From: Corynebacterium sp. HMSC29G08
GTDB lineage: Bacteria > Actinomycetota > Actinomycetes > Mycobacteriales > Mycobacteriaceae
NCBI RefSeq assembly: GCF_001806875.1
Contig: NZ_KV786211.1
Coordinates: 93,643-157,642, forward strand
DNA length: 64,000 bases
Reading direction: 5' to 3'
Part shown: piece by piece, positions 31,514-38,956 of the stretch
How the letters are laid out: every line of letters starts with the position of its first letter
Numbering within the stretch: the stretch's first letter is position 1
Position numbers and translations under genes: made by a program
The notes under the pieces: model-generated
What the model was told of the DNA's origin: nothing
Databases searched by the model: none
The model's input: only the letters and a program-made list of their open reading frames with translations

Positions 31514-32074
31514 ATGAGCGACGAGAACCGCGCGACGGTTGAGCTGTTGACAGCCTCAGACGTCGGGCGCACGATCGCACGCATCGCGCACCAAATAATT
31601 GAGAAAACCGCGCTTGATGGCGAGGACGCACCAACAGTCATGCTGCTTGGGATTCCGTCCGGCGGAGTGCCACTTGCGCATCGTATTGCTGATGCCATCC
31701 AAGAGTTTGCTGGCGTAACCGTCCCCGTGGGCAGCCTAGATGTCACGCTGTACCGCGATGATTTGAGGGATAAGCCGCACAGGGCACTGCGGCCCACCAG
31801 CATTCCAGCCAACATTGATGGCACCACGGTCATCCTGGTGGATGACGTGCTGTATTCCGGCCGCACCATCCGCGCAGCGTTGGATTCGCTTCGAGATATT
31901 GGTCGGCCGAAGGTGATTCAGCTCGCGGTTTTGGTTGACCGTGGGCACCGTGAGCTGCCAATCCGCGCTGACTACGTTGGCAAGAACATCCCAACCGCAA
32001 TGACGGAGGACGTGACTGTCACGCTCACGCCCATCGATGCCGTTGATGGCGTGACGCTGATAAGAGAGGGCTGA
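31514..32074 (+). CDS. pyrR: Bifunctional pyr operon regulator / uracil phosphoribosyltransferase
   Basis: 186 residues. The PRPP-binding motif [19 protein letters not shown] is perfect, with [10 protein letters not shown] and [10 protein letters not shown] typical of PyrR. It senses UMP/UTP and binds pyr mRNA; it also has UPRTase activity in homologues. First gene of the pyrimidine operon, followed 10 bp later by pyrB. Confidence 0.96.
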
Positions 32075-32084
32075 GGCTCAAGCA

Positions 32085-33029
32085 ATGAAGCATTTAATTG
32101 ACATTGCAGACTTAAGCCGTCAAGAGATTGTTGGCCTGATGGATGAGGCCGACCGCTTCCGTGAGGCGCTTGATGGCCGCGAGATCAAGAAACTGCCTAC
32201 GCTCCGCGGACGCACCATTTTCACCTTGTTCTACGAGAACTCCACACGCACTAGGTCTTCATTTGAAACTGCCGGCAAGTGGATGAGCGCGGATGTGATT
32301 AACGTCTCGGCTGCTAGCTCGAGTGTGAAGAAGGGGGAGTCGCTGAAAGACACGGCGTCCACGATCGCTTCGATCGGCGCAGATGCCGTTGTCATGCGCC
32401 ATCCGTCATCGGGTGCGCCGAACCTGCTACGCAAGTGGCTGCCGGAGACTTCCATCATCAACGCGGGCGACGGTCAGCACCAGCACCCGACACAGGCACT
32501 GTTGGACGCGGTGACCATGCGCCAACACATTGGTGACGTGCAGGGCAAGAAGGTTCTGATCGTCGGCGATATCTTGCACTCGCGCGTGGCCCGCTCCAAC
32601 GTGGACTTGCTGTCCACCCTGGGAGCTGAGGTGGTGCTGGTCGCACCGCCGACGTTGCTGCCCATGGGCGTTGAGCATTGGTCGGCGCGTGTCTCCTATG
32701 ACTTTGACGCGGAGGTTGCCCAAGGGGCGGATGTGGTGATGATGCTGCGCGTCCAGGCTGAGCGCATGGACGGCGGCTTTTTCCCCACGCACCGTGAGTA
32801 CGCCACACTGTTCGGCCTGTCGGCTCAGCGTGCGGACCAGCTGGGGCCGGAAACCCTGATCATGCATCCCGGCCCGATGCTGCGAGGCATGGAAATCAAC
32901 TTCGATGTGGCTGATCGCGACAACACTGTGGTGCTTAACCAGGTCTCTAACGGTGTCTACACCCGCATGGCGGTGCTGTTTACCCTGTTGAGCTCGGGGG
33001 AGGACGCGTTGGAAGGAAAGGTGAAGTAA
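32085..33029 (+). CDS. pyrB: Aspartate carbamoyltransferase catalytic chain
   Basis: 314 residues. The carbamoyl-phosphate site [23 protein letters not shown], the HPSSGAPN loop and [14 protein letters not shown] are all present. Joins carbamoyl phosphate with aspartate. No regulatory chain gene (pyrI) follows; the stop is directly followed by the TTG start of pyrC. Confidence 0.97.
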
Positions 33030-34316
33030 TTGAGTACCACCGCATTGACCACCGCATTGACTAACGTTCGCCCGTACGGTGAGGACGCCACCACGGTGCT
33101 GATCCGCGACGGTGTGATTGCGCAGGTCGGACCGGACGTTGACGTCAGCGACGTCGATGAGGTGCTGGACTGCGACGGCCTAGTCTTGTTGCCGGGCCTG
33201 GTAGATATGCACGTGCACCTGCGTGAGCCGGGCCGTGAAGATACCGAAACTATTGCCACTGGTTCGGACGCCGCGGCGAAGGGTGGGTTTACCGCCGTGT
33301 TCACCATGGCGAACACTAACCCCGTGATTGACCAGCCGTTTATCGCGGACGGTGTCTGGGACAAGGGACAGGCGTACGGCAAGTGTGACGTCTACCCGGT
33401 GGGCTCTATTTCCAAGAACCTGGAGGGCAAAGAGCTCACTGAGATTGGTCTGATGAGCCGCGGGCACGTCCGCATGTTTTCTGACGACGGTCGTTGCGTC
33501 AATGACCCGCAGCTGATGCGCCGCGCGATTGAGTACGCCAAGGCGTATGACGTGGTGTTGGCGCAGCACGCTGAGGATCACCGCATGACCGTCCACAGCG
33601 TTGCCCATGAAGGTGAGCAAGCTGCGCGTCTGGGTCTGACTGGCTGGCCGCGTGTTGCGGAGGAATCCGTTGTTGCACGTGACCTGATCATGACCCGTGA
33701 CTACGGCGGGCGCTACCACCTGTGCCACGCCTCTACTGCTGGCACGGTTGAGCTGCTGCGCTGGGCGAAGGCGCAGGGGATTGAGATCACCGCCGAGGTG
33801 ACGCCGCATCACCTGCTGCTCACTGATGAGCTGCTCGCTACTTATGACGGCAACTACCGCGTCAACCCGCCGCTTCGTGAGCACGAGGATGCGGTGGCGC
33901 TTCGCGATGCGTTGCTTGAGGGCATCGTGGATGTTGTGGCCACGGATCACGCTCCGCATGGGTCTGAAGATAAATGCGTGGAGTTTGACCACGCGAAGCC
34001 GGGCATGCTTGGCCTTGAGACGTCGCTGGCGGCAATCCACCAAGTATTCGTTGAGTCTGGTCTGGCGGATTGGCGTTTTGTGGCCAAGGTGATGAGTGAG
34101 CGCCCGGCAGAGATTCTGCGTCTGGAGGACCAGGGGCGCCCGATCGCTGTGGGGGAGCCAGCGAACCTGACACTTGTGAACCCGAATGACCCCTGGACTG
34201 CTCGTGGCGCCGATATGGCGTCGAAGGCTTCGAATACTCCCTATGAGGGCATGGAATTTTCCGCCCGCGTTGTTGCCACTTGGCTGCGCGGCACGCCGAC
34301 CTACACCAACATTTAA
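33030..34316 (+). CDS. pyrC: Dihydroorotase
   Basis: 428 residues, type I dihydroorotase. TTG start directly after the pyrB stop, with GGAAAGGTG 5' of it. Metal motif [10 protein letters not shown], later HAEDH, CHAST and VATDHAPHG are intact. The first residues [10 protein letters not shown] come from a 12-bp duplication (33036-33059). Followed 10 bp later by the shortened carA. Confidence 0.96.
33036..33059 (+). repeat. 12-bp tandem duplication at the pyrC start
   Basis: ACCACCGCATTG occurs twice in a row, in frame, duplicating Thr-Thr-Ala-Leu and leaving a second and third in-frame TTG as possible starts. Confidence 0.85.
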
Positions 34317-34326
34317 GGAACCGATT

Positions 34327-34767
34327 ATGAACGCACGTAAGAAGGCAGAGCTTTTGCTTGCCGACGGCACGTCTTTCCCCGGATACCTCTTCGGCGCAAC
34401 ACCCACCGCAGAGATCTCTGGCGCCGCCACTGTAACCACGAACATGTTCGCCTATCAGCGCGAAATGACTGATCCGGCCCGCAAGGGGCAGGTGCTCATC
34501 TTCGCTGCACCGCAGGTTGGCAACGCTGGTTGGAACGATGAGGACATAGCCAACCCAGAAGGCCGCATCACCGTTGGGACCGTAGTGGTGAGGGATCTCA
34601 CCACCCGAGTTTCTAACTTCCGCTCGGTGCGCTCCTTGGAGGAAGAGATGACCGCGCAAGGCATGAGCGGTATCTACGGGGTGGACACCCGCAAACTGGT
34701 CCGACACCTGTCTCAGATGGGCAACGAAAGCGTTGTCGCCACCCTCGTAGTCAAGGAGGAAAACTAA
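34327..34767 (+). CDS. carA: Carbamoyl-phosphate synthase small subunit, N-terminal domain only
   Basis: Only 146 residues from ATG 34327, against about 370-400 for CarA. The whole product matches the N-terminal domain that docks on CarB: LLLADGTSFPGYLFGA, MFAYQREMTDPARKGQ, APQVGNAGWNDED, VVVRDLTTRVSNFRS and MSGIYGVDTRKLVRHL. It stops (VVKEEN) where the glutaminase domain should begin, so the Cys-His-Glu triad is absent. No glutaminase remnant follows: carB starts at the next base and its ribosome site AAGGAGG is inside the last carA codons. The clean frame argues for a retained functional domain, not decay. The enzyme may use free ammonia or borrow a glutaminase from elsewhere; both are inference. 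Confidence 0.85.
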   Translation: MNARKKAELLLADGTSFPGYLFGATPTAEISGAATVTTNMFAYQREMTDPARKGQVLIFAAPQVGNAGWNDEDIANPEGRITVGTVVVRDLTTRVSNFRSVRSLEEEMTAQGMSGIYGVDTRKLVRHLSQMGNESVVATLVVKEEN

Positions 34768-38134
<3,367 letters not shown>

Positions 38135-38148
<14 letters not shown>

Positions 38149-38956
38149 CCGTCTCGTAGAGGCAGGTCGCACGCATGGGCGCCTGTGCGTCGGCATTGAC
38201 CCCCATGCAGCGCTGCTTGAGCAGTGGGGACTTGCAAACACTGTCGACGGCTTGCGTACCTTCGCCATGACGTGTGTGGAAGCCTTCGGCGGCCACGTAG
38301 CGGCGATCAAGCCCCAGGTGGCGTTCTTTGAGCGTTTCGGTGCACAGGGCTTTGCCGTGCTGGAGGAAACCCTTGCAGCGACGCGTGAGCTTGGGACGAT
38401 CACAATTGCAGACGCCAAACGCGGAGACATTGGGTCCACCATGGCCGGCTACGCCGCCGCATGGCTGGAACCCGGCGCACCCCTGGAGGCAGACGCAATG
38501 ACATTGACGCCCTACCTCGGAGTGGAATCGCTTGCCCCAGCGATTGAGCTTGCCCAGCAACATGGCAAAGGCGTGTTCGTGATGTCAGCAAACTCCAACC
38601 CTGAGGCCGAGCGGTTCCAGACCTCCACATTGAACAGTGGGGTGACCGTTGCGCAGTTCATGGTTGATGAGTGCGCGAAGTTCAACGCGGATGCCGCTTC
38701 CCGTGGGCAAGTGGGGGATGTGGGTGTGGTGGTTGGCGCGACCGTGGATAAGCCTCCAGCCCTTGCATCCCTCAATGCTCCGGTGCTGATGCCAGGTGTG
38801 GGTGCGCAAGGAGCAAGCTTTGCGGACGTTGACCGCATTGCCGGTACGCGTGCACACCTGGTGTTTCCTAACGTTTCGCGCTCTGTGTTGCGTCATGGGC
38901 CGAAAGTCGATGACCTGCGCAATCAGGCCGTCGAGCTGGGGAAACGCACTAATTAG
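38135..38956 (+). CDS. pyrF: Orotidine 5'-phosphate decarboxylase, type 2
   Basis: 273 residues from ATG 38135 (AAGG 8 nt upstream). [13 protein letters not shown], the catalytic [12 protein letters not shown], and [10 protein letters not shown] plus MPGVGAQGA match the PyrF subfamily common in mycobacteria. Makes UMP. Last gene of the pyr operon, followed by a strong terminator. pyrD and pyrE are not in the window. Confidence 0.95.

Follow-up and report, generated by a model that had tools for sequence, protein, structure and literature searches.

A glutaminase-free CarA in Corynebacterium: a free-standing docking domain and the probable ammonia dependence of its carbamoyl-phosphate synthase

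The carA gene in the pyrimidine operon of Corynebacterium sp. HMSC29G08 encodes only the domain by which CarA docks on CarB, and the glutaminase part of the protein is missing. The short gene is no artefact; it is conserved among its carriers and selection acts on it. Comparing the sequences, we give a probability of about three in four to the reading that CarA and CarB make up a working carbamoyl-phosphate synthase (CPS) which depends on ammonia and is capped by the glutaminase-free CarA domain. With rather less assurance we also lean towards a fuller proposal, that of an obligately ammonia-dependent bacterial CPS in which the glutaminase was deleted, the free CarA docking domain kept and CarB remodelled to match, and which would have spread inside a housekeeping operon as a cassette of short carA and the N-terminal half of carB. 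The gene lies in a stretch of 64,000 nucleotides, called the window in what follows, and the features that concern us are listed below.

31514..32074, + strand: pyrR, which opens the pyrimidine operon containing carAB
32085..33029, + strand: pyrB, aspartate carbamoyltransferase catalytic subunit
33030..34316, + strand: pyrC, dihydroorotase
34327..34767, + strand: short carA, a stand-alone CarA N-terminal (CarB-docking) domain of 146 aa without the glutaminase domain (from the open reading frame, Pfam, an AlphaFold2 model and a structure match)
34753..34759, + strand: AAGGAGG, a ribosome-site-like sequence for carB within the last carA codons (read from the sequence)
34768..38148, + strand: carB, full-length CPS large subunit of 1126 aa (from the open reading frame, Pfam and NCBIfam)
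35440..35586, + strand: CarB residues 225-273, with nine of the 17 group-specific sites (site comparison)
35572..35574, + strand: CarB codon 269, ATT (Ile), aligned with E. coli Arg265 (alignment)
35800..35823, + strand: CarB residues 345-352, with the inserted Gly345, T349, L351 and the changed F352 position
38129..38956, + strand: pyrF, orotidine-5'-phosphate decarboxylase, start codon uncertain

The short CarA and its operon

The short carA runs from an ATG at 34327 to a TAA at 34765-34767, and its translation agrees with the 146 residues and the position given in a preliminary description of this DNA. Pfam finds a sole match in the product, PF00988 over residues 9-134 (1-122 of the 126 profile positions); a GATase domain is not detected, so that the Cys-His-Glu triad of the class I GATases is absent; the earlier claim that the CarA N-terminal domain is kept and the class I glutaminase missing is thus borne out. 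Against the NCBIfam CarA model the product scores 109.5 bits, the cut-off being 307.35. Because its score lies so far under the NCBIfam CarA cut-offs, automatic annotation may leave such a gene unnamed or label it partial.

A model of the short CarA was made with AlphaFold2 from an alignment of 13 sequences (10 short and 3 full-length CarA) and has a mean pLDDT of 88.2. It aligns over 136 residues with residues 2-137 of E. coli CarA (Z 21.0, rmsd 1.5 Å, 33% identity) and matches human CPS1 with Z 19.6-19.8. The extent of the E. coli alignment suggests that the chain corresponds approximately to the whole domain. Over 12 short CarA sequences, with identity down to 46%, 33 columns are invariant. 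The cut in carA had been called clean; the chain does end at the domain boundary, but the short form carries derived changes of its own and its identity to E. coli CarA is moderate, so that the difference goes beyond a clean deletion.

The operon has the order pyrR, pyrB, pyrC, carA, carB, pyrF, and carB starts at 34768, the base directly after the carA stop codon. As had been stated, CarB is full length: both synthetase (ATP-grasp) halves and the oligomerisation and MGS domains were all found, and the carB ribosome site placed in the last carA codons is indeed present as an AAGGAGG. The assembly of this genome (2.41 Mb, 88 contigs) was searched for a full-length carA elsewhere, which had been named as a point against the preliminary reading, and no second carA was found, PF00988 occurring once in the genome profile search.

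Distribution and exchange within the genus

We used an alignment of 12 short forms as the query against 242 Corynebacterium genomes and found the domain in 240 of them. Fifteen of the 242 carry a short carA, C. riegelii, C. glaucum, C. stercoris and C. haemomassiliense being among the carriers, while 225 have a carA frame of at least 383 aa (the smallest has 383) and two are without carA and carB. The question of whether close relatives share the short gene is thereby answered in the affirmative, and the CarB of one carrier, G059, is 98% identical to that of the window. By predicted start the 15 short CarAs have 140-163 aa (for the 140 aa of G140 the start may be set too late), in open frames of 157-232 aa; they lie 0-23 bp before carB and are followed by a CarB of 1115-1127 aa. 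The spacing is 0 bp in six genomes and 14-23 bp in nine. Eight of the short-form genomes are single contigs (G009, G016, G059, G177, G179, G189, G211 and G217), and the identical gene structure in independent and in single-contig genomes rules out an assembly artefact or gap, including the missing segment at the carA-carB joint considered in the preliminary description. A lone pseudogene is likewise ruled out by a form common to 15 genomes.

An order-level search covered 397 genomes, four of which, all drafts, gave no match. Among the best matches listed there was no clear case of the short form outside the genus, the one exception being a 281-aa frame in G394 that lies at the edge of a contig. 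A separate observation concerns G137, where two equal-scoring CarA N-domain matches lie about 7 kb apart (G137:C2:1062488-1062865 and 1069454-1069831), possibly a duplicated carA.

The flanking genes and the two halves of carB give different accounts of the carriers. In a tree built on the pyrB, pyrC, gmk and metK genes of 61 genomes the short forms are scattered: G140 stands beside the full-length G238 and G054, five others fall inside a group with the full-length G048, G069, G077 and G215, and the well-supported branches force at least four changes of state. A single short clade is rejected by these flanking genes (p-AU 5.9e-7) and by the C-terminal half of carB (601-1126; p-AU 8.0e-6). With carB residues 1-420, in contrast, all 15 short forms make one clade with a support of 1.0, with or without the changed sites, and with outgroups added this clade falls inside Corynebacterium; residues 421-600 also keep all 15 together (support 0.90). 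The single clade of the N-terminal half, set against its rejection by the C-terminal half and the flanks, suggests that short carA and the N-terminal half of carB have probably been exchanged between species. Transfer is favoured over convergence on the strength of these trees, and both a gain of the short form and a return of the full-length one are possible directions.

The carB of G140 appears to be a mosaic. Up to about codon 550 it resembles the short group in most 50-codon stretches, and past that point it is 92-100% like its full-length relatives, the switch lying close to the border of the CarB halves. The short CarA of the same genome shows 64-68% identity with seven short forms and 43-52% with the other seven; with the N-domain of G238/G054 the figure is 42%. 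The short CarAs are thus diverse, and we count this against the explanation that we prefer. At the codon level, where identity is near saturation and of little help on the question of transfer, G140 and G238 are 54% identical in carB 151-350 and 64-69% in the other parts of carB, pyrB and pyrC, G140 is 55-64% identical to the other short forms over carB 151-350, and G158 shows no clear drop in that comparison.

Selection, matching changes in CarB and the nitrogen donor

Pairwise dN/dS was estimated by NG86 for eight short pairs and, over the first 150 carA codons, for seven full-length control pairs. The ratios, which are rough because some genomes enter more than one pair and carA dS is low in part of the pairs, were 0.12-0.31 for short carA in seven of the eight pairs (the eighth being identical), 0.02-0.06 for carB in those same short-form pairs and 0.03-0.23 for the N-domain of full-length carA in the controls. 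Short carA exceeds carB several-fold in this ratio and also exceeds most of the seven controls, and the short CarA is under purifying yet loose selection, looser than in most controls. Sixteen CarB positions regarded as catalytic are unchanged in all 15 short and all 46 full forms compared.

Seventeen CarB sites separate the short from the full group, and all of them lie within residues 92-351. A site was called group-specific when one state was held by at least 13 of the 15 short forms and another by at least 90% of 46 full ones (46 of the 225 full-length carriers were compared); site 260 is among the 17, even though the window itself has the full-length state at this position. Polarised with 18 outgroup genomes of the order, all with a full-length CarA, most of the short-group states are derived. 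Nine of the 17 sites fall in one 50-residue stretch, a concentration reached by 31 of 20000 random placements within residues 1-420 in a test made post hoc, and the confinement of the sites to the N-terminal half partly follows from the different history of the C-terminal half. Residue 269 is Ile in all 15 short forms and Arg in 64 of 64 full-length-CarA relatives (R269I), and its counterpart R265 of E. coli CarB is presumably a residue of the ammonia-tunnel wall. At residue 262 the short forms have Glu (15/15) and the full forms Asp (64/64); Gly345 is inserted in the CarB of every short form, and F352, kept in all 64 full forms, is lost in all 15 short ones. On the side of CarA, Ser47 (E. coli numbering), which we assume to be part of the glutamine site, is kept by all 64 full forms, whereas not one of the 15 short forms has a Ser there. 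P92 and F168 each occur in two of the 18 outgroups, the short-group states P92, F168, C170 and C232 are also those of E. coli, and the human ammonia-specific CPS I keeps an Arg at the R265 position. Given the Arg of CPS I and the four states shared with E. coli, such changes are therefore not general marks of ammonia use.

In order to find a possible substitute for the lost domain, GATases were searched in 24 genomes, namely 12 of the 15 with short CarA (all save G211, G217 and G237), 10 with full-length CarA, and the two CPS-less genomes G129 and G143. The GATase part of full-length CarA scores 141-153 bits, and matches were listed down to an E of about 1.7e-6, which is far weaker. The window's own genome has GATases of the GuaA, TrpG, HisH, PurQ, GatD-like and PRK07567 types and no CarA-like spare one, and no CarA-like GATase was seen among the matches listed in the 12 short-CarA genomes. 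In the other 11 of these, the strong match in a small frame is the TrpG orthologue, 65-95% identical to the window genome's own TrpG and 24-29% identical to a CarA GATase; the remaining strong matches in short genomes are long frames of GuaA or PyrG size, by families checked in the window's own genome. A free-standing CarA-like GATase is on these grounds rejected for the 12 short genomes, and the search proposed in the preliminary description, for such a GATase or for a second carA, came out empty for the 12 genomes and for the window's own genome respectively. The GATase of CTP synthase (pyrG) was not found in the latter assembly, probably through a contig break, and G059, a close relative, has a 627-aa frame of the pyrG kind; with 88 contigs and pyrG not found, a gene may therefore have been missed in this assembly.

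Two observations favour free ammonia as the probable donor: the GATase search showed no CarA-like spare enzyme, and all 15 short forms have lost CarA Ser47. A passage in PMC6245113 states that E. coli CarB forms carbamoyl phosphate from ammonia, and part of PMC4655335 describes E. coli variants whose glutamine tunnel is blocked or perforated and which are still active on external ammonia, and an alternative ammonia path proposed for E. coli CPS. Against the ammonia reading we count the very high ammonia that E. coli CPS requires, according to the same passage in PMC6245113, together with the distribution of urease, present in only two of the 15 short-CarA genomes (G000 and G059) and in 90 of 227 others. 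Urease as a shared source of ammonia is ruled out group-wide by this count.

It is unlikely, in our estimate, that ammonia reaches the synthase in trans from a separate glutamine amidotransferase bound to CarB or to the short CarA. Remote genes for synthetase and glutaminase are common in the enzyme class, at 27% of the carAB arrangements in Table 1 of PMC3376133, and the PRK07567-type GATase of the window's own genome scores 253.3 bits, just under its cut-off of 264. Matches of PRK07567-like frame size and score, however, also occur in full-length-CarA genomes; none of the own GATases is CarA-like; and the loss of CarA Ser47 and CarB R265 argues against docking in the old manner. We hold it a little less probable again that CarB alone uses ammonia, the short CarA being a remnant or a leader for translational coupling without structural role. 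Such a view could draw on the faster evolution of CarA (dN/dS 0.12-0.31, with 0.02-0.06 for CarB), on the ribosome-like site for carB inside the window's carA and on the 0 bp between the genes in six of 15 genomes, but the 33 invariant columns and a model that covers the domain argue against it, and the spacing of 14-23 bp in the other nine genomes implies that coupling is not needed.

The possibility that the locus is decaying, in species which take up pyrimidines and arginine so that CPS becomes dispensable, seems to us very slight. Both carA and carB have been lost in two of the 242 genomes, which could be taken in its favour; CarB of the short forms, though, is under strong purifying selection with the 16 checked positions kept, and pyrB, pyrC and argG are present in all 15. 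Since argG was found in all 39 genomes searched, these 15 included, loss of arginine synthesis is ruled out. The two CPS-less genomes, with no CarA match and only weak CarB matches in the genus search, themselves have genes for an ornithine carbamoyltransferase and a carbamate kinase downstream of pyrBC, a possible other source of carbamoyl phosphate. In G129 (L167 7540-9584) the two genes stand directly after pyrC, where carAB would be expected, and the carbamate kinase is above the cut-off of NCBIfam arcC; in G143 (L168 5501-12471) a YfcC-like transporter comes next after pyrB and pyrC, and only then the ornithine carbamoyltransferase and the carbamate kinase. Formation of carbamoyl phosphate from arginine via ornithine carbamoyltransferase is reported for Thermococcus kodakarensis in a passage of PMC13260591, and the arrangement in the two genomes is consistent with a lasting need for carbamoyl phosphate met by another route.

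Under the preferred reading, that of an ammonia-dependent CPS capped by the CarA domain, the pair would be active in vivo as a synthase that no longer hydrolyses glutamine. CarB would run both ATP-dependent steps with free ammonia entering from the solvent, and the 146-residue CarA, the old docking domain, would form a structural cap over two domains of CarB, the carboxyphosphate domain and the oligomerisation domain; part of PMC6245113 describes contacts of the E. coli small subunit with both, the oligomerisation domain being residues 401-552. Once the GATase was lost, CarB may have been remodelled on the surface left exposed and at the ammonia tunnel, which on the glutamine side had become a dead end (R269I, Gly345 inserted, A351L, F352 changed), and CarA may have shed residues formerly needed for the glutamine site. 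Short carA and the CarB N-terminal half, adapted to each other as a unit, would then have been swapped among Corynebacterium species by recombination in the pyr operon. The preliminary description had seen here selection for a glutaminase-free CPS, and this is well supported by the occurrence in 15 genomes, dN/dS below 1, the kept CarB positions presumed catalytic, the matching changes in the N-terminal half and the apparent exchange as a unit.

Comparison with known systems

No description of a short or glutaminase-free bacterial CarA was found among the open-access papers searched. Table 1 of PMC3376133, the part of that source which concerns us, divides about 600 genomes with carAB into fused (1%), clustered (72%) and remote (27%) arrangements and has none without a glutaminase. 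The passage of PMC6022934 that describes CPS I, II and III, the split CPS of Aquifex and the 41 kDa CPS of Methanobrevibacter smithii leaves a lone CarA docking domain unmentioned. CPS is a textbook ammonia-channelling enzyme, and a natural form without glutaminase would allow a direct test of the CarA docking domain alone, would show by what means an ammonia tunnel is shut or put to new use, and would test whether free ammonia can feed bacterial pyrimidine and arginine synthesis. Close full-length relatives, such as G238 or G054 beside G140, are natural comparison pairs.

The pair resembles the E. coli-type CarAB (CPS II) in the domain order of CarB, the catalytic positions checked, the fold of the CarA N-domain (Z 21.0) and the pyr operon context, and differs from it in having no GATase domain with its Cys-His-Glu triad, in the 17 CarB sites within residues 92-351 and in the loss of CarA Ser47. 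With mitochondrial CPS I (human CPS1) it shares the kept CarA-like N-domain (Z 19.6-19.8) and, as we expect, the use of ammonia. The analogy to CPS I drawn in the preliminary description holds as a functional likeness, but not in structure: CPS I retains an inactive GATase-like domain and needs N-acetylglutamate, as passages in PMC4655335 and PMC6022934 have it, whereas here the domain is absent and carA and carB are separate genes.

Among microbial enzymes, the small CPS of M. smithii comes close in consisting of synthetase units alone, no glutaminase part being mentioned in the relevant passage of PMC6022934; it is, however, a 41 kDa protein with a single ATP-grasp unit that acts as a dimer, whereas the present enzyme has a 1126-aa CarB with both halves and a CarA docking domain. 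Single-domain NadE (NAD synthetase) likewise lacks a glutaminase although its class is glutamine-dependent, and is reported in part of PMC3376133 to work on free ammonia in vivo, but it belongs to another enzyme family, and its ammonia form is proposed there to be ancestral, whereas the GATase has been lost here. The split CPS of Aquifex aeolicus also has its parts on separate genes (PMC6022934, in the same passage), but there the glutaminase subunit is retained and it is the two halves of CarB that are split. Carbamate kinase-like CPS has the amino-acid-kinase fold, whereas the CarB described here matches ATP-grasp families.
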